Source: Myxococcaceae bacterium
Lineage (GTDB): Bacteria > Myxococcota > Myxococcia > Myxococcales > Myxococcaceae
DNA: 33,926 bases
NCBI GenBank assembly: GCA_019694595.1
Contig: JAIBBQ010000055.1
Location: 1 to 33,926, forward strand
Reading direction: 5' to 3'
Under the pieces are notes generated by a model. That model was not told the origin of the DNA. It did no database searches and saw only the letters and a program-made list of their open reading frames with translations. How positions within the stretch are numbered: position 1 is the stretch's first letter; the number at the start of each line of letters is the position of its first letter. Of this stretch, positions 16,218-31,834 are shown piece after piece. The translations under genes and the position numbers were made by a program.

Positions 16218-16874
16218 TCAGCCCTTTGCGAGGCCGGCGACGACCCGGCGCGCCGCGGCCAGCCGCCTCGCGGGGTGTGCGTGAAAGCCCACCGGCCCCA
16301 GCACGCGGACCCCGGGATGCCGGCGCTCGAGCCAGCGCACATTGTGCTCCACCGACGCATCCACGCCGCGCACCGACTGCACCAGCACCACCGCCGCCAC
16401 CGGGAGCTTCCGCCGCGCGAGCTCCGCCAGCGAGAGCCCGACGTGGTTGAGCGTGCCCAGCCCGGCGCGCCCGACCAGCACCACCGGGAGCTGCAGTGCC
16501 TGCGCGAGGTCGGCCACGTCGTGGCGCCCATCGAGCGGCACCAGCAAGCCTCCGGCGCCTTCCACCACCGCGCACGCGCCCATCGCGCGCTCGAGGTGCC
16601 GGCGCACCTTGGCGAAGGACACCGGCCGCCGCTCGAGCTCCGCCGCCACGCCCGGCGCCAGGGGCGCGCGGAACCGCGCCACGCACACCTCGTCGAGGTC
16701 TTGCCGGGCGCCCGCACGGCGCCGCAGGAACTCCGCGTCGCCCACGCCGCCCGACTCGTACGGCTTGAACGCCCGGGGCTCGAGACCGTTCGACTCCAGC
16801 TCGGCGAGGAGCGCGCCCGACACCAGCGTCTTGCCCACGCCGGTGTCGGTGCCGGTGACGAAGAAGCGCTTCAC
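16218..16874 (-). CDS. bioD: Dethiobiotin synthetase
   Basis: The product has 218 residues, close to the usual length of BioD. It converts 7,8-diaminopelargonate, CO2 and ATP into dethiobiotin. The P-loop GTDTGVGKT lies at residues 8-16, the substrate-binding Lys is in FKPYESGG, and [11 protein letters not shown] carries the conserved Glu and glycine stretch. The start overlaps the stop of bioA by 4 bases (16871-16874). It is the last gene of the biotin operon. Confidence 0.95.
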
Positions 16875-18223
16875 CGGCCGCAGACCGCGTCGATGGACTC
16901 GCGCACCGCGCGCGTCAGCAACTCAGCCTCGTCGAGCGTGAGCGACAGCGGCGGCATCAGCACCAGCACGTTCCCCAGCGGCCGCAGCAGCACGCCGCGC
17001 TCGCGCGCCTTGCGGCACACCTGCATGCCCATGCGCTCTTCCGCCGGGTAGTCGAGCCGCTTCGCCTTGTCCTGCACCAGCTCGACGCCCACCATCAGGC
17101 CCCGCCGGCGCACGTCGCCCACGTGCGGGTGCCCAGTCAGCGGCCTGAGGCCCACCGCGAGCGTCTCCACCACCGGCTTGAGCTTCGCGAGCGTCTGCTC
17201 TTCCTCGAAGAGCTCCAGGTTCCGCAGCGCCACCGCGCACGCCAGCGGGTTCCCCGTGTACGTGTGCCCGTGGAAGAACGTCTTGGCGTCCTTCGCGCTG
17301 CCCAGGAAGGCGTCGAAGACCTGCGGCGTGGTGAGGGTCGCCGCGAGCGGCAGGTACCCGCCGGTGAGCCCCTTCGCCACGCACAGGAAGTCCGGCGCCA
17401 CGTCTTCCTGCTCCACCGCGAACATCGTCCCGGTGCGGCCGAAGCCGGTCGCCACCTCGTCGCAGATGAGCAGCACCTCGTGCTTGCGGCAGAGCGCGCG
17501 CAGGCCCGAGAGGAAGCCTTCCGGGTGCATCCACATGCCGGCGGCGCCCTGCACCAGCGGCTCCACCACCAGCGCGGCGAGCTCGTGCGCGTGCGCCGCC
17601 AGCAGCGCCTCGGCCTGCGCGAGCGCTTCCTTGAGCACGTCGGCGCCGCCCTTCCAGCGGTAGCGGTGCGGCGACGGCAGCCGCAGCACGTCGAACACCA
17701 GGTCCTGGAAGCGCTGGTGGAACAGCTCGATGCCGCCCACCGAGACCGCGCCCAGGGTGTCGCCGTGGTAGCTCTCTTCGAGCGCGGCGAAGCGGCGCTT
17801 CTGCGGCCGGCCCACCTGGCGCCAGTACTGGTACGCCATCTTGAGCGCCACCTCGACCGCGGTGGAGCCCGAGTCCGAATAGAAGACCTTCGACAGCCCG
17901 GGCGGCGCCAGCTCCGCGAGCTTCGCCGCCAGCTCGATGGCCGGCACGTTCGCCGCGCCCAGCAGCGTGCTGTGGGCGAGCTTGTCCACCTGGGCCTTGA
18001 GCGCCTCGTCGAGCGGCGCCTTGCGGTGCCCGTGCACCGTCACCCAGAGCGAGGAGATGCCGTCGAGGTAGCGGCGGCCCAGCGTGTCGATGAGCCAGTT
18101 GCCTTCGCCGCGCTCGATGATGAGCGGCTCGTCGCCCGGCCACAGCTGCATCTGGGTGAAGGGGTGCCAGACGTGCTTCAGGTCGAGCGCCCACAGCCGC
18201 TCGTGGCGCTCCTGCGGGGTCAC
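16871..18223 (-). CDS. bioA: Adenosylmethionine-8-amino-7-oxononanoate aminotransferase
   Basis: The product has 450 residues, a class III PLP aminotransferase that uses S-adenosylmethionine as amino donor to make 7,8-diaminopelargonate. The PLP lysine is Lys284 in AKGLTGG, and [13 protein letters not shown] holds the PLP-ring aspartate. The N-terminus HVWHPFTQM and the SLWVTVHGH region are typical of BioA. The start is GTG at 18223, overlapping the bioF stop (GTGA). It is the third gene of the operon. Confidence 0.95.
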
Positions 18224-19419
18224 AGCCGCGCCCCGGCGAAGGTCTCCAGCGCCTGCACCGGCACGCGCGGGAGCACCACCGCCAGCGCCTGCATCGCCCG
18301 CTCCAGGTGCTCCGGGGTGTGCGCCGCCGTCACCGTGAAGCGCAGGCAGCTCTTGCCCTGGGGCACCGTGGGCGGGCGAATCGCCTTCGCCAGCACGCCC
18401 TGGCGCCGCAGCGCGAGCGACGCTTCCACCGCGGCCTCGGGCGTGCCCAGCACCACGCTGAAGATGGCGGAGCGCGCCTTGGCGGGCAGGCCGAAGTGCT
18501 GCAGCCCTTCGGCGAAGGTGCGGATGTTGTTCCACAGCCGCTCGCGCAGCGAGGAGTCGACCCGCAGCCGCTCCAGCGCCGCGGCGCCGACCCACGCCAG
18601 CACCGGCGACATCGCGGTGGAGAAGACGAACGAGCGGCTCTGGTTGAGGAAGAGGTCGCACAGCGTGCGGCTCGCGCCCGCGAAGGCCCCTGCGCTGCCC
18701 AGCGCCTTGGACAGCGTGCCCAGCTTCACGTCGGGGGTGACGCCAGCGCCCTCGCACGCGCCGCCGCCCGTGGGGCCGAGCACGCCGAGCGCGTGGGCCT
18801 CGTCGACCATCAGCGCCGCGCCGTGGTGCGCGCACACCAGCGCGAGCTCGGCGAGCGGCGCCACGTCGCCTTCCATCGAGAAGACCGCGTCGGTCACCAC
18901 CAGCTTGCGCTTGGCGTTGGACGCGTGGAGCTGGTGCTGCAGCGCCTCCACGTCGGCGTGCGGGTAGATGTGCACCTGCGCGCGCGACAGCCGGCAGCCG
19001 TCGATGAGGCTCGCGTGGTTGAGCGCGTCGGAGAAGACCGCGTCGCCGGGGCCCACCAGCGCGCTGATGAGGCCCACGTTGCCCGCGTAGCCCGAGGTGA
19101 AGGCCAGCGCGCTCTCGGTGGCGAAGACGCGCGCCGCCGCCTCTTCCAGCGCGCGGTGCGCCGGTCCGTCGCCCACCACCAGGCGCGAGGCGCCCGCGCC
19201 CACGCCGAACAGGTCGACCGCCTGGTGCGCCGCGGCGATGAGCCCGGGGTCGCTGGAGAGCCCGAGGTAGTCGTTGGACGAGAAGTTCACCAGCGCGCCG
19301 CCGCCCTCGAGCTGCACCACCGGGCCCTGACGGGACACCAGCGGCTCCAGGGTGCGCTTGAGCCCGCGCGCCTCGAGCGCGGCGAGGGTCTCCTTCGCCC
19401 AGCCGTCGGCGACGCCCAC
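18220..19419 (-). CDS. bioF: 8-amino-7-oxononanoate synthase
   Basis: The product has 399 residues and belongs to the alpha-oxoamine synthase family. It condenses pimeloyl-ACP or pimeloyl-CoA with alanine, the first committed step after pimelate synthesis. [14 protein letters not shown] near residue 45, the [13 protein letters not shown] motif and PLP Lys238 in [12 protein letters not shown] are all present. The start is GTG at 19419, 6 bases after the bioB stop. The genes that make the pimeloyl substrate (bioC, bioH) are not in the window. Confidence 0.95.
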
Positions 19420-19425
19420 GACCGG

Positions 19426-20466
19426 TCAGCTCCGCGCCGGAGCGCCCGTGGTGTCGGGCTCGAGCGGCTTCACGCCGGCGTCGGCGAGCAGCTTCATGTC
19501 GGCGGCGAACTCGGGGTTCGCGGTGGTGAGCAGGGTGTCGCCGAAGAAGATGGAGTTGGCGCCCGCGAGCATGCACAGCAGCTGCGCTTCCTGCGACAGC
19601 GACAGCCGGCCGGCGGACAGGCGCACCATCGCGCCCGGCATCAGGATGCGCGCGGTGGCGATCATCCGCACCAGCTCCACCGGCTCGACCTGCTTGCTGC
19701 CCGCGAGCGGCGTGCCTTCCACCGGCACCAGCGCGTTCACCGGCACCGACTCCGGGTGGTGCTCCTGGTTGGCGAGCGTCACCAGCATGCCGCAGCGGTC
19801 GTCGATGGACTCGCCCATGCCGATGATGCCGCCCGAGCACACGCTGATGCCCGCCGCGCGCACGCGCGCCAGCGTCTTCAGCCGGTCGTCGTAGGTGCGG
19901 GTGGAGATGATGTCGCCGTACTTCTCGGCCGAGGTGTCGAGGTTGTGGTTGTACGCGGTGAGGCCGGCTTCCTTCAGGCGCTTGGCCTGCGAGTCGCTCA
20001 GCATGCCCAGCGTGCAGCACGCCTCCATGCCCAGCGCGCGCACGCCGCGCACCATGTCGAGCACCGAGTCGAACTGGGGGCCGTCCTTCACCTCGCGCCA
20101 GGCGGCGCCCATGCAGAAGCGGGTGGCGCCGGCCTGACGGGCCTGCTTCGCCGACTCCAGCACCTGCTGCACCTGCATCAGCTTCTCGGCCTTGACCCCG
20201 GTGTCGTAGCGCGCGGCCTGCGGGCAGTACGAGCAGTCCTCGGAGCAGCCGCCCGTCTTGATGGACAGCAGGCTGCAGAGCTGCACCGCGTTGTCCTTGA
20301 ACACCGCCCGGTGCACCGTCTGCGCGCGGTAGACGAGGTCGAGCAGCGGCGTGTCGTGAATCGCGCGGACCTCGGCGACGGTCCAGTCGTGGCGCAGCGG
20401 AATTTCCTGGGGCACCGCGGGGCCGTGGTGCGTGTGGGCGTGGCCGGTAAACGCGTGGTCGGACAT
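19426..20466 (-). CDS. bioB: Biotin synthase (radical SAM)
   Basis: The product has 346 residues. It inserts sulfur into dethiobiotin using a radical-SAM [4Fe-4S] cluster and a second [2Fe-2S] cluster. The cluster cysteines are Cys74, Cys78 and Cys81 in [27 protein letters not shown] and RLSAGR, all typical of BioB, are also present. The N-terminus has an unusual histidine-rich start (His4, 9, 11, 13 and 14). It is the first gene of the operon and is preceded by a candidate promoter and BirA-type operator. Confidence 0.96.
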
Positions 20467-24666: not shown

Positions 24667-24703
24667 GGCGGGGCGCAGGGTTTGCGGGCAGGGGTCGGTA
24701 GAT

Positions 24704-24714
24704 GCAGAATCTGC
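24704..24714. promoter_or_regulatory. Perfect 11-base dyad upstream of the response regulator
   Basis: GCAGA-A-TCTGC is a perfect palindrome around a single base. It lies about 40 bases before a sigma-54-like element and about 65 bases before the regulator start. It could be a protein-binding site. Confidence 0.3.
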
Positions 24715-24745
24715 GCGTCTGCTGGCTGATCGGGCCGGTACGACT

Positions 24746-24762
24746 CGGGCACACCATTTGCT
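24746..24762 (+). promoter_or_regulatory. Sigma-54-like element close to the response regulator start
   Basis: CGGGCACACCATTTGCT keeps GG and GC exactly 10 bases apart and matches 10 of 12 fixed positions of TGGCACG-N4-TTGCW. Transcription would begin near 24773, only about 3 bases before the ATG and after the GGGAGG ribosome binding site. It would therefore give a leaderless message, or it may not act as a promoter. Confidence 0.35.
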
Positions 24763-24775
24763 CTCGGGAGGTTCC

Positions 24776-26170
24776 ATGGCCCTCACCCGAGTCCTGATCG
24801 TCGACGACGAGGTCAATGCGCGGCAGGCGCTGCGCACCATCCTCACCGAGGAAGGGTACGAGGTCGCCGAGGCGGGAGACGGCGCCGACGCGCTGCCGCT
24901 GCTCGAGACCTTCCGGCCCGCGGTGGTGCTGTGCGACGTGCGCATGCCCAAGCTCGACGGCCTGTCGCTGCTCAAGCAGGCGCGCGCCAACGGCGACACC
25001 GCGAGCTTCGTGATGATGACCGCCTTCGCCAGCGTGGAGACGGCGGTGGAGGCCATGCAGGCCGGCGCCGAGAACTTCCTCATCAAGCCGCTCGAGGTGA
25101 AGGCGGTGCTGGTGGTGCTGCAGAAGGTGCTCGAGAAGCGGGCGCTGATCCGCGAGGCGGACACCCTGCGCGAGCGCGTCAAGGAGCGCTACCGGTTCCC
25201 CGGCATCATCGGCGAGGCCCCGCAGCTCCAGGCGGTGTTCGAGGTGGTGAAGCAGGCCGCGCCCACCAAGGCGACCGTGCTCATCCTCGGCGAGTCGGGC
25301 ACCGGCAAGGAGCTCATCGCCCAGGTGCTCCACGAGAGCTCGCCGCGCAAGGACAAGCCCTTCATCAAGGTGAACTGCGCCGCGCTGTCGGAGTCGCTGC
25401 TCGAGAGCGAGCTGTTCGGCCACGAGAAGGGCTCGTTCACCGGCGCGCAGGGCCGCCGCGAAGGCCGCTTCGAGCTCGCCGACACCGGCACGCTGTTCCT
25501 CGACGAGGTGGGAGAGATTTCACCCGCGCTGCAGATCAAGCTCCTGCGCGTGCTGCAGACCCGCGAGTTCGAGCGCGTGGGCGGCACCCAGTCGGTGAAG
25601 GTCGACGTGCGGCTGGTCGCGGCGACCAACCGCGACCTCGCGGCCGAGGTGAAGGCCGGGCGCTTCCGCGAAGACCTCTACTACCGGCTCAACGTGGTGG
25701 CGGTGACGCTGCCGCCGCTGCGCCAGCGCAAGGGCGACATCCCCGCGCTGGTGGGCCACTTCCTCGAGAAGTACTCCGCCGCCTACGGCAAGCAGGTGAA
25801 GTCGCTGGCGCCGGGCACGCTCAACGCGCTGCTCGCCCACTCGTGGCCGGGCAACGTGCGCGAGCTCGAGAACGCGGTCGAACGCGCGGTGGTGCTCTGC
25901 AAGAGCGAGGAACTCTCGGCCGACGACCTGCCGCCGTCGCTCCAGGGCGCGCGGCCCCGGCCGGGCGACCCCGCCGCGCTCATTCCCGGCGCGACGATGG
26001 CGGAGATCGAGCGCGAGGCCATTCTGCGCACCATGGAGATGGTGCAGGGCTCGACGTCGCGCGCCGCCGAGGTGCTGGGCATCAGCGTGCGCACCATCCA
26101 GTACCGGCTCAAGGCGTACGCCAGCGGCGACCCCGCGAACCCCGAGCACCAGGCGCCGCTCGACGACTAG
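24776..26170 (+). CDS. NtrC-family sigma-54-dependent response regulator
   Basis: The product has 464 residues. The receiver domain (1-120) has Asp10/Asp11, phospho-acceptor Asp54, Thr82 and Lys104. The AAA+ domain (about 143-370) has Walker A GESGTGKE at 172, the sigma-54 contact loop GSFTGA at 219-224 (Ser in place of the usual Ala) and the Walker B-like FLDEVGEI. A Fis-type helix-turn-helix ends the protein ([21 protein letters not shown]). GGGAGG lies 4 bases before the ATG. No histidine kinase gene is adjacent, so it is an orphan. Its nearest likely targets are the sigma-54-type promoters at 27401 and 28937. Confidence 0.95.
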
Positions 26171-26180
26171 CGCGGTCGGT

Positions 26181-26918
26181 TCAGCGCGCGAGCAGCTCTT
26201 CGGGCGCCGGCGGCTCGGCGGGGCCACCTGCGGGCACCACGTAGCCGGCCTGGCGCGCCACCCAGCGGGCGACGTCGAGCGCGGAGACGATGCCGCACAC
26301 CCGGCCGTCGCGCCCCAGCACCGGCACGCGGTGCAAGCCTTCGAGCGCCATCAGGGCCGCCACCTCGCCGAGGTGGGCGGTGTCCTGCACGCAGGTCGGC
26401 CGCTCGCTCATCACGTCGGCCACGGTGCGTGGGGTCCCTTCCTCGGGGTCGATGGCCGCCTCGTAGGCTTCCCGCACCAGGTCGGTCTTCGACACCATGC
26501 CCACCGGCCGGCCTTCGGGCGTCACCACCGGCGCGCCGGAGAAGCGCAGGGTGAGGAAGAGCTCGGTGAGGCGCTCCAGCCCCAGCGACGGCTCGACGCA
26601 GGTCACGTCGGTGGTCATCACCTCGGTGACCAGCGTCTGCTGGAGCACGGCTTCCATCGCGCACCCGAGCAGCGACGGCTTGCGGGTCAGCTCGGGCCGG
26701 CTCGGTGGGGGCGGGCGGCAGTGGACCGCGACCGCGCGCCCGCTGCGCGACTGCTCGATGCGCTCGGTGTGCACGCAGCCTTCGCAGCGCTCCAGCGCGA
26801 CCGGGTCATCCGAGCGAGGGCAGGTGGCCACCGAGACGGCGCAGGAGCCGCCTTCCGACTCCACGTGGCGGGTGCGCACGGTGACCCGGCGCAAGGGTGG
26901 CCGTTGTTCGTCGCTCAT
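26181..26918 (-). CDS. CBS-pair protein with N-terminal cysteine cluster
   Basis: The product has 245 residues. The N-terminal part has Cys33-x11-Cys45-x2-Cys48 and Cys67, with another at Cys26, so it could bind zinc or an iron-sulfur cluster. Two CBS domains follow (about 90-150 and 165-225), with the typical VMTTDVTCVEP, GMVSKTDLV, VMSERPTCVQ and GIVSALDVARW. CBS pairs usually sense adenosine nucleotides. The ATG at 26918 has AAGGAGAG upstream and overlaps the stop of the lipoprotein gene (ATGA). It converges on the response regulator gene, 10 bases between stops. Confidence 0.88.
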   Translation of the reverse strand: MSDEQRPPLRRVTVRTRHVESEGGSCAVSVATCPRSDDPVALERCEGCVHTERIEQSRSGRAVAVHCRPPPPSRPELTRKPSLLGCAMEAVLQQTLVTEVMTTDVTCVEPSLGLERLTELFLTLRFSGAPVVTPEGRPVGMVSKTDLVREAYEAAIDPEEGTPRTVADVMSERPTCVQDTAHLGEVAALMALEGLHRVPVLGRDGRVCGIVSALDVARWVARQAGYVVPAGGPAEPPAPEELLAR

Positions 26919-27262
26919 GGGCTCTCCTTGGGCTTCGCCACGCCCAGCAGGTCGTCGGCAGGGGAGGCGACCGACACCACCTTGCGCTGCGCAGGGTCGA
27001 GCGCCACCACCAGGCGCCGCTTCGAGCGCGGGCCGACGATGCCGAAGTGGACGCGCAGGAGGTTGGGCCCCAGCTCTTCCACCCGGTCGACCTGGCTCGA
27101 CTCCCCCGGCTCCAGCGCCAGGCTGTCGCTCGCCAGCTGCACCGCGTCGCTCACCTGAGCCTGCAGCGAGGCGCTGGTCGGCGGCGGCGAGCGCCGCAGC
27201 GGCCCGGTGGACGCGCTGGCGCAGGCGGTGAGGCAGAGTGCGACGACTGCCAGTCTGGTCAT
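26915..27262 (-). CDS. Small lipoprotein, unknown function
   Basis: The product has 115 residues with a lipoprotein signal (MTRLAVVALCLTAC, lipobox LTAC, Cys14). The mature part has one strand-rich segment (RVHFGIVGPRSKRRLVVALDPAQRKVVSV). I do not recognise a family. It is translationally coupled to the cysteine-rich CBS gene by a 4-base overlap, so the two are one operon. No good ribosome binding site precedes the ATG. Confidence 0.75.
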   Translation of the reverse strand: MTRLAVVALCLTACASASTGPLRRSPPPTSASLQAQVSDAVQLASDSLALEPGESSQVDRVEELGPNLLRVHFGIVGPRSKRRLVVALDPAQRKVVSVASPADDLLGVAKPKESP

Positions 27263-27366
27263 TGGAGAGAAGGGTGCTGCAGCCGGCAGGCCAGAGGATC
27301 TCCCGGGGAAAGGGCCTCTTCGTGCGCACCCTCTGCGTTCGACGGGGTCTGGCGACGAAGGGCTTG

Positions 27367-27387
27367 CGTGAGCGGCCCAGGCTCACG
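27367..27387. promoter_or_regulatory. Inverted repeat upstream of the hsp20 promoter
   Basis: CGTGAGC-N7-GCTCACG is a perfect 7-base inverted repeat. Its centre lies about 26 bases before the GG of the sigma-54-like promoter, so it could be an activator or accessory-factor site. Activators of sigma-54 usually bind further away. Confidence 0.35.
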
Positions 27388-27400
27388 TGGGCCGGTGTGG

Positions 27401-27417
27401 TTGGAACGGCGATTGCT
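27401..27417 (+). promoter_or_regulatory. Sigma-54 promoter of hsp20
   Basis: TTGGAACGGCGATTGCT matches TGGCACG-N4-TTGCW at 11 of 12 fixed positions (A in place of C after GG). GG and GC are exactly 10 bases apart. The predicted start, about 12 bases after the GC, is near 27428 and gives a leader of about 54 bases before the hsp20 ATG. Confidence 0.7.
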
Positions 27418-27436
27418 GTCGTGTCCACCGGGTCTC

Positions 27437-27462
27437 GCGATGGCCGCGGATCCGTGGATCGC
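27437..27462 (+). promoter_or_regulatory. Hairpin in the hsp20 leader
   Basis: GCGAT pairs with ATCGC and CCGCG with CGTGG (one G-U pair in RNA). A GG bulge lies on the 5' side and the loop is GATC. It ends 6 bases before the GGAGGG ribosome binding site (27469-27474). It may stabilise the message or respond to temperature. Confidence 0.45.
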
Positions 27463-27481
27463 AATCATGGAGGGAAACGTC

Positions 27482-27979
27482 ATGGCAGACATCGCTGTGC
27501 GCAAGAGCGTCGGTGGAGCACCGGTGGTGAGCGCCAACCGGGAGCTGGAGCCGTACCAGCTGATGCGTGAGCTGCTGCGCTGGGACCCCTTCGGCGAGAT
27601 GACGCCGGCCTGGACCGAGGCGCGCGGGCTCGGCTTCGCGCCCGCCTTCGAGGTGAAGGAAGTGAAGAACGCGTACCTCTTCAAGGCAGACCTGCCCGGG
27701 GTGAAGGAGGCCGACCTGGAAGTCACCATGACCGGCAATCGCCTCACCGTGACCGGGAAGCGCGAGGAGGAGCACGAGGAGCACCAGGGCACCTACTTCG
27801 CCCGCGAGCGCTCGTACGGGCAGTTCACCCGCGCCTTCACGCTCCCCGAGGGCGCCGACGCCACCCAGGTCCACGCGGACCTCAAGGCGGGCGTGCTGAC
27901 CGTCGCGGTGCCCAAGCGGCCCGAGGTGCAGCCCAAGAAGATCGCCGTCGGCTCTGGCGAGCGCCCGAACAAGTCGTGA
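27482..27979 (+). CDS. Small heat shock protein, Hsp20/alpha-crystallin family
   Basis: The product has 165 residues. The alpha-crystallin domain spans about 55-150: FAPAFEVKEVKNAYLFKADLPGVKEADLEVT, NRLTVTGKREEE, FTRAFTLPEGAD, and the signature LKAGVLTVAVPKR. Such ATP-independent chaperones form oligomers that hold unfolding proteins. The C-terminus VQPKKIAV carries an I-x-V-like motif for oligomer contact. The start at 27482 is supported by GGAGGG 7 bases upstream; an in-frame ATG at 27467 overlaps that site and is less likely. It is the first gene after a sigma-54-type promoter and lies before uspA. Confidence 0.95.
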   Translation: MADIAVRKSVGGAPVVSANRELEPYQLMRELLRWDPFGEMTPAWTEARGLGFAPAFEVKEVKNAYLFKADLPGVKEADLEVTMTGNRLTVTGKREEEHEEHQGTYFARERSYGQFTRAFTLPEGADATQVHADLKAGVLTVAVPKRPEVQPKKIAVGSGERPNKS

Positions 27980-27991
27980 GGCAGACTCACC

Positions 27992-28022
27992 GGGGTGCCG
28001 GCCGACGTCTGGCCGGTGCCCC
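27992..28022 (+). terminator. Strong hairpin between hsp20 and uspA
   Basis: A 12-base stem, GGGGTGCCGGCC with GGCCGGTGCCCC (two G-U pairs in RNA), closes a 7-base loop, 12 bases after the hsp20 stop. There is no T-run. It may end or pause hsp20 transcription, or protect the hsp20 3' end if the two genes share a message. Confidence 0.5.
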
Positions 28023-28048
28023 CACGCTGATGAGGAGCTGAGACCGCC

Positions 28049-28471
28049 ATGAAGACCATCATCGCCGCCCTCGACGGATCCGACCCTGCGCTGCACGCCG
28101 CGACCAAGGCCGCGGAGCTGGCGCGCGCCCTCGGCGCCCGGCTGGTGCTGACCTCGGTGGTCACTCCGGTCTTCATCCCCATGGAAGCCGGGGCCATCGA
28201 CCTCGCGGCCATCGAGGACGCGATGGCCAAGGACGCCGAGGCCCAGCTGACGAAGGCGGCGACCACGCTGCAGAGCCCCGGGTTGAAGATCGACCGCAAG
28301 GTGCTGCGCGGCACCACGGTGGAATGCCTCATCGACCTCGCCCAGAAGGAGCAGGCCGACCTGGTGGTCGTCGGCAGCCACGGCCGCGGCGCGGTGCAGC
28401 GGGCGCTCCTGGGGAGCGTGTCCAGCCGGCTCGTCCACCAGTGCCCGCGTCCGGTGCTGGTGGTGCGCTAG
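28049..28471 (+). CDS. Universal stress protein UspA, single domain
   Basis: The product has 140 residues, the normal length for one Usp domain. It begins MKTIIAALDGSDPA with the conserved Asp. The nucleotide motif GSHGRGAVQRALLGSVS (G-2x-G-9x-GS) is complete, so ATP binding is likely. GAGGAG precedes the ATG by 11 bases. It follows hsp20 by 69 bases and converges on the CBS gene, with stops 3 bases apart. Confidence 0.95.
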   Translation: MKTIIAALDGSDPALHAATKAAELARALGARLVLTSVVTPVFIPMEAGAIDLAAIEDAMAKDAEAQLTKAATTLQSPGLKIDRKVLRGTTVECLIDLAQKEQADLVVVGSHGRGAVQRALLGSVSSRLVHQCPRPVLVVR

Positions 28472-28474
28472 CCG

Positions 28475-28900
28475 CTAGCCCTCGGCGGCGTCCGCCTCGC
28501 CGTCGAGCGGGCCTGCCCCGACGCGCTCCGCTGCCACCTTCAGCAGGTCGGTGGCGGTGAGCAGCCCCACCAGCGTGCGGTCGCTCTCCACCACCGGCAG
28601 GCAGCCGAGGCGGTAGCGCAGGAGCAGCCGCACCGCCTCCTGCGCCGAGCTGCCGGGGCGCACGGTCATCACCTTCTTCTTCATCACCTCGCCCGCGCGC
28701 GCCGGGGCCTCGCCGTCTCGCTGGCGGGCCGCCTGGGCGAGGAGCTCCCGGTGGGTGAGGAGCCCCACCAGCGTCCGCCCGCGGACCACCGGCAGGTGGT
28801 GCAGGTGCGCCAGCGAGAGCCACCGGCGCACGTCGTCGAGCGGCTCCTGCTCGTCGAGCGTCACCAGCTGGGTCGACATCAGGTCGTTCACCAGGAACAT
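28475..28900 (-). CDS. Stand-alone CBS-pair protein
   Basis: The product has 141 residues, two CBS domains and little else. CBS1 (about 5-60) has DLMSTQLVTLDEQEPL and VGLLTHRELL; CBS2 (about 73-130) has VMKKKVMTVRPGSSA and VGLLTATDLLKVA. Such proteins bind adenosine nucleotides and act as regulatory partners. An excellent sigma-54-type promoter lies 37 bases upstream. The gene is divergent from the triple-Usp gene (184 bases between starts). Confidence 0.93.
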   Translation of the reverse strand: MFLVNDLMSTQLVTLDEQEPLDDVRRWLSLAHLHHLPVVRGRTLVGLLTHRELLAQAARQRDGEAPARAGEVMKKKVMTVRPGSSAQEAVRLLLRYRLGCLPVVESDRTLVGLLTATDLLKVAAERVGAGPLDGEADAAEG

Positions 28901-28936
28901 GCGGCCTCGGGCAGACCTCGGGGTCCAGAGCAGGGC

Positions 28937-28952
28937 AGCAACCGACGTGCCG
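28937..28952 (-). promoter_or_regulatory. Sigma-54 promoter of the CBS-pair gene
   Basis: Read on the minus strand, CGGCACGTCGGTTGCT matches TGGCACG-N4-TTGCW at 11 of 12 fixed positions (C for the first T). GG and GC are 10 bases apart. Transcription would start near 28926, leaving a leader of about 26 bases before the ATG at 28900. Confidence 0.7.
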
Positions 28953-28978: not shown

Positions 28979-28990
28979 GGCGTGCACGCC
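28979..28990. promoter_or_regulatory. 12-base palindrome upstream of the CBS-gene promoter
   Basis: GGCGTGCACGCC is a perfect palindrome, centred about 34 bases upstream of the GG of the sigma-54-type promoter. It lies in the divergent control region shared with the triple-Usp gene and may bind a regulator. It shares only the CGTG/CACG half-site core with the dyad before hsp20. Confidence 0.3.
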
Positions 28991-29084
28991 GTGCAGGCCG
29001 GCGAGGCGCCGCGCAGCCCTTGCGCGACGGCCCGGGCTCCTCCGTCGAGAGCGGGTGGTACGACTCGTGAAGCGAGGTGTGCCC

Positions 29085-30422
29085 ATGAGCGTGCTGTGTG
29101 GGTTCGACCTCTCCCGCGCTTCGCAGCGTGCCGCCACGGTGGCGGCGGCGCTGGCCCGGGCGCGCCGCGAGCCCCTGGTGCTCGTGTACGCCGTGCCGCC
29201 CTGGCCCAACGAGTGGGAAGGCTCGGGCCGAGGCGAGCTCCTCGCGGGGCTGCGGCGCGCGCTCGACCGGGAGACCGAGCGGCTGCGCGGGCCCGAGCTC
29301 GCGGTGTCCGCGCGGCTCGTCGCCGCGACGCCGGTGGAGGCGCTCGCCCGCGAGGCTGCCGACAGCGAGGCCACCTTGGTGGTGCTGGGCTCCGCCGCGC
29401 CTTCCGAGCGCATGGGAGGCCGCGCAGGCCGGCTCGCCGAGCGGCTCGCGCAGCGCAGCCCGCGGCCCACCCTGGTGGTGCGCGACGCCGAGCCGTGGCT
29501 CGCCTGGCTGTCGGGCGGCGCGCCGCTCGAGGTCCTGGTGGGCGTCGAGCCCGGGCCCACCTCGGAGGCCGCCTGGCGCTTCGCGGTGTCGCTTGGCGCG
29601 CTCGCGCCGGTGAAGGTGACCGGCGCGCACCTCTACTGGCCGCCGCACGAGTTCAAGCGGCTGGGCCTCACCGGCGTGCGCAGCTACGTCGACGTCGACC
29701 CCGAGGTGGCGCGGGTGCTCGAGCGCGAGCTGTCGGCCCGGCTCCCCGGCGGACCGGGCGCCACCGTCGGCTTCTTCAGCGCGCCCAGCCTCGGGCGGCC
29801 GGCCGACCACCTGGCGAGCCTGGGCGCGGAGCGCGGCGTCCACCTGCTCGTGGTGGGCACCCACCGGCGCTCCTTCGTCGAGCGGCTGTGGGAAGGCTCG
29901 GTCTCCCGCGGGCTCCTGCGTGGCGCCACCGTCGCCGCCGCCTGCGTGCCGGCGCACGGGGTGCCCGTGCCTGCGCCGCCCGAGGAGCCGCGGCACGTGC
30001 TCGCGGCGACCGACCTCACCGCGCTCGGCAACGCGACGGTGGAAGCGGCCTTCGCGCAGGCCGGCGAGCACGGCGCCATCACCGTGGTGCACGTGCTGGA
30101 GCCGCCGCCGCACCACCGCGACCTGGACCCGCACGACGTCTTCGAGGTCTCCGCAGAGAACGCCCCGCGCAAGGCGCAGGTCCTCGCCGAGCTCACCGCG
30201 CTGGGCACCTCGCACGGGGCAGGCCGGCTCACGCCGCTGGTGCTGGAGTCGCACTCGCCGGCCAAGGCCATCGCCCAGGCCGCGGAGCGCGTCGGCGCCA
30301 CGCTGGTGCTGGTGGGCACGCGCGTGAGGGAAGGCAGCCGGCCCGGCCCCGGCGCGGTGCTCGAAGGGGTGCTCCAGGGCACCACCCGGCCGGTGCTGGT
30401 GGTAAGGCCGCCGGGCCGATGA
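29085..30422 (+). CDS. Triple universal-stress-protein fusion
   Basis: The product has 445 residues and three Usp-like domains in a row (about 1-133, 147-295 and 303-445), each ending in a V-x-V strand (LVVRD, VAAACVPA, VLVVRPPGR). Each domain has lost part of the G-2x-G-9x-G nucleotide motif: GSAAPSERMGGRAG, GTHRRSFVERLWEGS and GTRVREGSRPGPGAVLEG. ATP binding is therefore doubtful. Usp proteins usually have one or two domains. The ATG at 29085 follows GAGG by 7 bases. Its stop overlaps the start of the beta-CASP nuclease gene (ATGA). Confidence 0.88.
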   Translation: MSVLCGFDLSRASQRAATVAAALARARREPLVLVYAVPPWPNEWEGSGRGELLAGLRRALDRETERLRGPELAVSARLVAATPVEALAREAADSEATLVVLGSAAPSERMGGRAGRLAERLAQRSPRPTLVVRDAEPWLAWLSGGAPLEVLVGVEPGPTSEAAWRFAVSLGALAPVKVTGAHLYWPPHEFKRLGLTGVRSYVDVDPEVARVLERELSARLPGGPGATVGFFSAPSLGRPADHLASLGAERGVHLLVVGTHRRSFVERLWEGSVSRGLLRGATVAAACVPAHGVPVPAPPEEPRHVLAATDLTALGNATVEAAFAQAGEHGAITVVHVLEPPPHHRDLDPHDVFEVSAENAPRKAQVLAELTALGTSHGAGRLTPLVLESHSPAKAIAQAAERVGATLVLVGTRVREGSRPGPGAVLEGVLQGTTRPVLVVRPPGR

Positions 30423-31834
30423 CCGAACCGCTCGCGCCCACGCTCACCTTCGCCGGCGGCGCGGGCACCGTCACCGGCTCCAAGTACCTCGTGCAGGCCC
30501 AGGGCCGCCGCGTGCTGCTCGACTGCGGGCTCTTCCAGGGGCTCAAGGCGCTGCGGCTGCGGAACTGGGCGCCCCCGCCGTTCGACCCGCGCTCGGTGGA
30601 CGCGGTGGTGCTGAGCCACGGCCACCTCGACCACTCGGGGGCGCTGCCGCTGCTCGCGCGCGCGGGTTTCGCCGGCCCGGTGTACTGCTCGAGCGCCACC
30701 GCGGACCTCCTGGGCGTGGTGCTGCGCGACGCGGCGCACGTGCAGGAAGACGACGCCGCCCGCGCCAACCGGCACCGCTACTCGAAGCACGAGCCTGCGT
30801 TGCCGCTCTACACCCTGGCCGACGCCGAGGCAGCGCTCGCGCTCGCCGCGCCGAAGCCGACCGGGACCTCGTTCGAGGTGGCGCCGGGCCTCGACGTGCT
30901 GCTGCGCCGCTCGGGCCACATCCTCGGGGCGAGCACCGTGGAGCTGAACATCGGTGGGCCGAAGCCGGTGCGCCTCGTCTTCTCCGGCGATCTCGGCCGC
31001 TGGGACCGGCCCATCCTCAAGGACCCGGAAGCCGTGCCCAGCGCCGACGTGCTGCTCCTCGAGTCCACCTACGGCGACCGGCTCCACCCGGGGAACGCCG
31101 ACGAGCAGCTGCGCGAGGTCATCAGCCAGACGGTGCGCCGCGGCGGCGTGGTGGTGGTGCCGGCCTTCGCCATCGGCCGCACGCAGGAGCTGCTCTGGCG
31201 CATCCAGGTGCTGCGCGAGAAGGGCATGCTGCCCCTGGTGGGGCTCTTCCTCGACAGCCCGATGGCGAACGCGGTGAACCAGGTCTACTGCCGGCACCCC
31301 GAGGAGCACGACCACGAGATGGCCGAGCGCACCCACCACGGGAAGTGTCCGCTCTGCTCGCCGACCGCCCAGCTGGTGCGCACCGCCGAGGAGTCGAAGG
31401 GCCTCAACCGTCACCACGGCAGCGCGGTCATCATCGCCGGGAGCGGCATGGCCACCGGCGGCCGGGTGCTGCACCACCTCAAGTACCGGCTCCCCGATGC
31501 GCGCAACACCGTGCTGCTCTCGGGCTTCCAGGCCGAAGGCACCCGCGGCCGCGCGCTGCAGGAAGGGGCGCGCCGCCTGCGCATCCACGGCGAGGAGGTC
31601 GAGGTGCGCGCCAAGGTCGAGACCATCGAGGGCCTGTCGGCCCACGCCGACCAGGGCGAGCTGCTGCGGTGGCTCGAAGGGTTCCAGCGCCCGCCGCGGC
31701 AGACGTACCTGGTGCACGGCGAGCCCAGGGCGTCGGAGGCTCTGGCGGGGAAGATTCGCGAGCGCTTCGGCTGGAACGTCGCGGTCGCGGTCGATGGCGC
31801 GACGGTGGACCTCGCCGCCAGCGGGCAGGGGTGA
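30419..31834 (+). CDS. Beta-CASP metallo-beta-lactamase-fold ribonuclease
   Basis: The product has 471 residues. The metal motif HGHLDH lies at 67-72, then RSGHILGAST, FSGDLGRWDRP and LLLESTYGDR. The beta-CASP and RNA-specificity parts show AFAIGRTQELL, IIAGSGMATGGRVLHHLK, LSGFQAEGTRGR, EGLSAHADQ and LVHGEP. This is the CPSF-100/YSH1-like group of RNA endo/exonucleases. An insertion holds a CPLC pair (Cys310, Cys313). The ATG overlaps the triple-Usp stop, and mntP follows 7 bases after its stop, so the three genes form one operon. A role in RNA turnover under stress is inferred. Confidence 0.93.
   Translation: MTEPLAPTLTFAGGAGTVTGSKYLVQAQGRRVLLDCGLFQGLKALRLRNWAPPPFDPRSVDAVVLSHGHLDHSGALPLLARAGFAGPVYCSSATADLLGVVLRDAAHVQEDDAARANRHRYSKHEPALPLYTLADAEAALALAAPKPTGTSFEVAPGLDVLLRRSGHILGASTVELNIGGPKPVRLVFSGDLGRWDRPILKDPEAVPSADVLLLESTYGDRLHPGNADEQLREVISQTVRRGGVVVVPAFAIGRTQELLWRIQVLREKGMLPLVGLFLDSPMANAVNQVYCRHPEEHDHEMAERTHHGKCPLCSPTAQLVRTAEESKGLNRHHGSAVIIAGSGMATGGRVLHHLKYRLPDARNTVLLSGFQAEGTRGRALQEGARRLRIHGEEVEVRAKVETIEGLSAHADQGELLRWLEGFQRPPRQTYLVHGEPRASEALAGKIRERFGWNVAVAVDGATVDLAASGQG

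Follow-up and report, generated by a model that had tools for sequence, protein, structure and literature searches.

A probable NmpR-type low-oxygen regulon with sigma-54-like promoters and a fused globin-kinase sensor in a member of the Myxococcaceae

The closest described system is NmpRSTU of Myxococcus xanthus, and the arrangement of nmpU, nmpT and nmpS has been published for both M. xanthus and Anaeromyxobacter (PMC6211767, PMC11841059). In this relay, NmpS phosphorylates NmpR, not other receivers (PMC6211767), and a sign inversion is built in, as oxygen-active NmpU turns NmpS off. The published NmpR site is GCGCA-N5-TGCGC, present in tandem and usually with 14-15 nt between sites, and in M. 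xanthus sites with mismatches in GCA-N5-TGC tended to be left unbound by NmpR (PMC11841059). The targets of NmpR in Anaeromyxobacter were stated as unknown by the NmpR authors.

The window analysed here is a stretch of 33,926 nucleotides from a Myxococcaceae bacterium. Judging from sequence, the island between 24.7 and 31.8 kb (Table 1) is very likely an NmpR-type low-oxygen regulon with sigma-54 promoters, whose relay has apparently been replaced by a fusion kinase. Like NmpRSTU, it has an orthologous NtrC-like regulator, tandem GCGCA-N5-TGCGC sites 14-15 nt apart and predicted sigma-54 promoters. In the proposed mechanism, low oxygen would activate the fusion kinase encoded on contig C96, the active kinase would phosphorylate NmpR, and phosphorylated NmpR would bind the tandem enhancers in three intergenic regions and activate sigma-54 RNA polymerase at promoters that lie some 40 bp downstream of the nearer site of each pair. 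These promoters would serve nmpR itself, hsp20-uspA, CBS1 and the double-USP-metallo-beta-lactamase genes, and probably lipoprotein-CBS2. The signal is probably oxygen limitation and not general stress; which way oxygen acts is inferred solely from the target genes and by comparison with M. xanthus. The first-pass annotation had placed Hsp20, UspA and the CBS protein in one regulon under the regulator at 24776, and this proposal gained support from the paired enhancers, the conservation upstream of hsp20 and the linkage of these genes to nmpR.

Table 1. Predicted features of the island and candidate targets elsewhere in the genome. Domains in the window were assigned with Pfam; D, distance (bp) of the -24 GG from the enhancer centres (nearer/farther).
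Feature	Position	Strand	Details
Tandem enhancer pair upstream of nmpR	24672..24717		S1 GGCGCAGGGTTTGCGGG 15.3, S2 GATGCAGAATCTGCGCG 17.0; 29 bp apart
Sigma-54-like site GGGCACACCATTTGCT before nmpR	24747-24762	+	2 mismatches; GG 39 and 68 bp from enhancer centres
NmpR ortholog	24776..26170	+	Receiver (D54), AAA+ with GSFTGA, Fis-type HTH
CBS2, two CBS domains	26181..26918	-	CBS x2; overlaps end of lipoprotein-like gene
Small lipoprotein-like protein	26915..27262	-	Leads the CBS2 pair; no Pfam match
Weaker sigma-54-like site TGGCCTGCCGGCTGCA for lipoprotein-CBS2	27278-27293	-	PWM 11.4; D 39/70
Enhancer pair, lipoprotein gene/hsp20	27323..27370		S1 TGCGCACCCTCTGCGTT 10.8, S2 GACGAAGGGCTTGCGTG 7.9; 31 bp apart
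Probable sigma-54 promoter TGGAACGGCGATTGCT of hsp20	27402-27417	+	PWM 17.2; 80 bp before ATG at 27482; D 41/72
Hsp20/alpha-crystallin small heat shock protein	27482..27979	+	HSP20 6e-27
UspA	28049..28471	+	Usp 7e-33; starts 69 bp after hsp20
CBS1, two CBS domains	28475..28900	-	CBS x2
Probable sigma-54 promoter CGGCACGTCGGTTGCT of CBS1	28937-28952	-	PWM 15.8; 52 bp before ATG at 28900; D 38/67
Tandem enhancer pair common to CBS1 and double-USP	28981..29026		PWM, exact-pair scan
Sigma-54-like site TGGTACGACTCGTGAA before double-USP	29056-29071	+	PWM 8.5; D 39/68, geometry exact
Multi-domain universal stress protein (double-USP gene)	29085..30422	+	Usp, 3 stretches
Metallo-beta-lactamase/beta-CASP/RMMBL protein	30419..31834	+	Overlaps USP stop
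HemN-type radical SAM behind tandem enhancers	L163:1605-3020		Sigma-54-like site at D 42, low score
Cytochrome-like gene upstream of pyruvate phosphate dikinase (PPDK), behind tandem enhancers	L164:1601-3040		D 39, low score
Hemerythrin behind tandem enhancers	L167:1057-1434		Sigma-54-like site at D 41, low score
USP (contig C294) behind tandem enhancers	L169:972-1439		Sigma-54-like site at D 40

Within the island, hsp20 and uspA probably form one transcript, and the double-USP and metallo-beta-lactamase genes probably form one operon. Elsewhere in the window, a biotin biosynthesis cluster was apparent at 16218-20466 (minus strand), where inspection of the translations indicated bioD-, bioA-, bioF- and bioB-like genes.

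At the sequence level, the gene at 24776-26170 is an ortholog of M. xanthus nmpR. Its product is 67-79% identical to the homologs at the NmpR position in relatives, whereas the nearest paralog within the genome reaches 48%. A reciprocal search with a relative's ortholog returned the window gene at 78% versus 49% for the runner-up; the reciprocal best hit refers to homologs from loci arranged like the published nmpRSTU, rather than to the named M. xanthus NmpR. Homologs above the threshold were present in 45 of 60 relatives, in a few only as more distant paralogs, and the close ones were mostly 67-79% identical. About 28 of 39 neighbourhoods have the nmpR ortholog next to genes for a protoglobin histidine kinase, a double-receiver protein and a receiver-kinase hybrid, and the protoglobin kinase, which is the NmpU homolog, matches 5ohe, a globin-coupled histidine kinase of solved structure (E 4.5e-107). 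Because these three neighbours reproduce the published nmpU/T/S arrangement, the window regulator was taken as NmpR. Moreover, it carries GSFTGA and the phosphoacceptor D54, the same number as that published for M. xanthus NmpR. The regulator had been described as an orphan of the NtrC type; the type is right, and the word orphan no longer applies to an NmpR with a probable kinase on another contig. HsfA/LonD and DosR, considered as possible parent systems, were set aside, as NmpR fits by sequence and site.

The enhancer motif was obtained independently of the window. A gapped-palindrome search upstream of nmpR in 36 relatives, which excluded the window and preceded our reading of the NmpR papers, found GCA-N5-TGC in 22 of 36 (2.5 expected), often paired 19, 29 or 39 bp apart; since visual inspection of those very sequences had suggested the search, this count is descriptive. 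The de novo motif equals the published consensus, whose gap of 14-15 nt corresponds to 29-30 bp from start to start. With a PWM trained without the window, the three best window matches lay at 24701, 24672 and 29010, the nmpR pair taking the top two scores. Two pairs, 24672/24701 and 28981/29010, are tandem with 29 bp from start to start, that is, a 14-nt gap, and 29011-29025 is the single stretch of the window that matches GCGCA-N5-TGCGC perfectly. Genome-wide, the exact tandem pair was counted 8 times versus 0 in the control, and 2 of the 8 are in the window. The hsp20 pair is imperfect: S1 agrees with GCGCA-N5-TGCGC at 9 of 10 positions, and one half-site of S2, the proximal enhancer, is degenerate, with GAA for GCA. 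Searching for a single enhancer consensus with 2 mismatches was useless at this GC content (107 matches versus 115 expected) and was abandoned.

Enhancers and promoters are arranged with a fixed geometry. At the five sigma-54-like sites, those of nmpR, hsp20(-uspA), lipoprotein-CBS2, CBS1 and double-USP, the distance from the -24 GG is 38-41 bp to the nearer enhancer centre and 67-72 bp to the other. Strict modules of an enhancer pair plus a promoter numbered 3 in the window, 0 in 300 simulated windows and 0 in 895 kb of sequence from relatives, reversed as a control, with limits (distance of 36-66 bp, pair spacing of 28-31 bp) that were picked after the first sites had been seen. Additionally, 39 related neighbourhoods contained 31 enhancer pairs versus 0 in the control, all of them called intergenic. 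In the lipoprotein-CBS2/hsp20 and CBS1/double-USP regions, back-to-back promoters have one enhancer pair in common.

The promoters before hsp20 and CBS1 had originally been noted as matching 11 of 12 fixed positions of TGGCACG-N4-TTGCW, which is true of both; GG-N10-GC is intact at 27402 and 28937. The coordinates given for the second site (28937-28952) were confirmed, and the start given for the first, 27401, was one base early. The expectation of well under one chance match also stood, with a shuffled mean of 0.37 per window (at most 1 mismatch); at least two matches occurred in 2 of 100 window shuffles, only about p=0.02. In the 7.28-Mb genome, the 11/12 pattern matched 44 times versus 57 for the backwards control, and without a genome-wide excess the consensus match by itself is not diagnostic. 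Consensus counts as sole proof were therefore dropped. These counts would fit chance matches at both sites, with the genes using housekeeping or heat-shock promoters; however, the sites precede both genes, the matched enhancer pairs appeared in none of the 300 simulations, and hsp20 sites recur in 9 of 29 relatives, so that we regard chance as highly improbable. The two sites are very probably real promoters, a judgement based on context and conservation, not on counts.

Three further sites were missed by the first-pass annotation, at 24747-24762 (+), 27278-27293 (-) and 29056-29071 (+), the last two being weaker by a sigma-54 matrix that was approximated from the consensus and not trained on mapped promoters. 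The double-USP site at 29056 has GA, not GC, at -12 and so departs from strict GG-N10-GC. The site at 27278 predicts a short leader of about 5 nt for the lipoprotein gene, and that at 24747 predicts a leader of about 3 nt, so the nmpR transcript would be leaderless or the promoter is mis-assigned. Sites like 24747 were found near the nmpR start in several relatives. Also in several relatives, TGCTAnnnT occurs near the nmpR ATG, which suggests extended -10 sigma-70 leaderless promoters that replace or overlap the sigma-54 site. A purely sigma-70 extended -10 promoter for nmpR (TGCTA near the ATG) suits several relatives but not the window, and was rejected. An inverted repeat, CGTGAGC-N7-GCTCACG, was seen at 27368-27388, between the hsp20 enhancers and the -24 element; it was dropped as an enhancer candidate because none was seen at the other promoters. 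Outside the window, a type IV pilin-like gene is preceded at 40 bp by a near-consensus sigma-54 site, AGGCACGCGCGTTGCT (L012; G000:C100:21681-21696), as would be anticipated for pilA.

The best -24/-12 site belongs to the hsp20 promoter, but its enhancer pair is the weakest of the three, and hsp20 is therefore the least certain strong target. The scan for conservation covered 29 hsp20 homologs in relatives at family and order level, at a score of at least 12 on the approximated sigma-54 matrix within 120 bp before the start; 9 had a comparable sigma-54 site (L034, L035, L038, L047, L048, L053, L055, L057 and L058), whereas about 0.1 were expected from reversed nmpR neighbourhoods (44 in 698 kb, both strands). 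The remaining 20 had no strong sigma-54 site, so the predicted control of hsp20 is lineage-specific. Conceivably, NmpR controls CBS1, double-USP and nmpR, and hsp20-uspA depends on sigma-54 with another enhancer-binding protein. The weak pair (10.8 and 7.9) beside the best sigma-54 score would fit such a division, as would L034, L047 and L055, where the site before hsp20 is accompanied by no clear NmpR site, and about 50 NtrC-type ATPase domains in the genome would provide alternative activators. We nevertheless consider it unlikely, because the hsp20 pair keeps the same distances to the -24 element (41/72) as the other four promoters and good NmpR-type sites lie upstream of hsp20 in L035, L053 and L057. 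Furthermore, linkage of nmpR with USP/CBS/Hsp20 genes extends over the family and order: the nmpR ortholog adjoins hsp20 in genomes G006 and G026 and lies within 5 kb of it in G021, where a double-USP gene follows hsp20. Control of hsp20-uspA by NmpR is thus the preferred reading.

The probable sensor is encoded on contig C96 (G000:C96:31916-33094, minus strand; L171:9917-11095), by the one clear protoglobin kinase gene in the genome. The product combines a protoglobin with HisKA/HATPase domains (Pfam), as in globin-coupled histidine kinases, and its proximal His96 and distal Tyr42 correspond, as sequence motifs, to His99 and Tyr45 of an NmpU homolog. It shares the protoglobin domain and the corresponding Tyr and His with AfGcHK of Anaeromyxobacter sp. 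Fw109-5. Its globin reaches 69% identity to NmpU. Unlike that of AfGcHK, the kinase half comes from NmpS (62-64% identity to the best, up to 63.5%) and not from NmpU (about 34%). Consistently, NmpU and NmpS kinases part at 100/100 in the tree, with the fusion kinase inside the NmpS clade, and the phosphoacceptor helix SHEIRNPLNAAGLQLSVLERR is of the NmpS type. The linker from LDLEL to the catalytic His has 43 residues, versus 37 in all 16 NmpU proteins measured.

No full NmpS or NmpT ortholog was found in the genome, an absence that rests on an estimated completeness of 99% in an assembly of 394 contigs, and a scan of the contigs with the fusion kinase gave one possible full-length relative (L176) among the matches listed, plus unrelated kinases. 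With one fusion in place of NmpU, NmpT and full NmpS, the locus represents an NmpR ortholog and its regulon, not a four-component NmpRSTU system. Among 195 genomes of the phylum, a second globin-NmpS fusion was found, at the threshold used, in G020 only (L158, G020:C47). It lies near an nmpR ortholog, has a linker of about 32 residues, and is likewise accompanied by no detected NmpS or NmpT in that genome. The two fusions are not united in the tree, and they therefore probably arose separately.

The fusion gene lies behind a P-type cation ATPase gene on a different contig from nmpR, and the assembly is fragmented, so the regulon could be NmpR's with an unrelated fusion kinase, the signal coming from another kinase or from true NmpS/NmpT in assembly gaps. 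This seems quite improbable given the NmpS-like helix, the position in the NmpS clade and the parallel case in G020; moreover, the ATPase-fusion gene pair is preceded by a perfect NmpR consensus, GCGCACCCTCTGCGC (L171:13572-13588), accompanied by no clear sigma-54 site. The interpretation that we somewhat favour is that two lineages of myxobacteria independently reduced the four-protein relay to a two-component system by grafting the NmpU globin onto NmpS, with a regulon that includes Hsp20. Given the sign inversion of the original relay, such a graft must either reverse the output or change the sign of the coupling between globin and kinase.

The predicted regulon is wider than initially noted, adding nmpR, double-USP, lipoprotein-CBS2, HemN, hemerythrin, another USP and others. 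The HemN, cytochrome-like, hemerythrin and USP genes behind tandem enhancers would fit a low-oxygen response. Some sigma-54-like sites of these out-of-window targets have TTGAA at -12. The enhancer pairs at C294:17579 and C301 lack such a promoter and may be chance occurrences.

Compared with NmpRSTU, CBS and USP proteins are again among the predicted targets, CBS1 and double-USP flanking one enhancer pair, and hemerythrin likely belongs to the set from elsewhere in the genome. In contrast to M. xanthus, where nmpR lies inside a CBS-led operon, nmpR stands alone here and has an enhancer pair and a sigma-54-like site to itself, promoters lie back to back around common enhancers, and the NmpU/NmpT/NmpS relay is apparently replaced by the globin-NmpS fusion. 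In addition, Hsp20 is a predicted target here, whereas the M. xanthus regulon paper does not name it (PMC11841059). The Hsp20 target, the enhancer-sharing layout and the fused sensor are thus predicted to go beyond the published system.

A comparable set of targets is known from the DosR dormancy regulon of Mycobacterium tuberculosis, in which a heme sensor kinase and a response regulator control alpha-crystallin Hsp20, USP and CBS targets at low oxygen. The DosR regulator is of the LuxR type, not sigma-54-dependent, and its sensor is unrelated to the system described here, so that the likeness would be a functional analogy only.

What had appeared as an orphan regulator beside two promoters thereby becomes a defined, predicted low-oxygen regulon open to testing, and the NmpR system would be extended beyond M. 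xanthus. With Hsp20 added, the target set would match in kind that of the dormancy regulon of mycobacteria, but under sigma-54 control. The fused kinase would represent a natural experiment in phosphorelay simplification and in the setting of sign in oxygen signalling.
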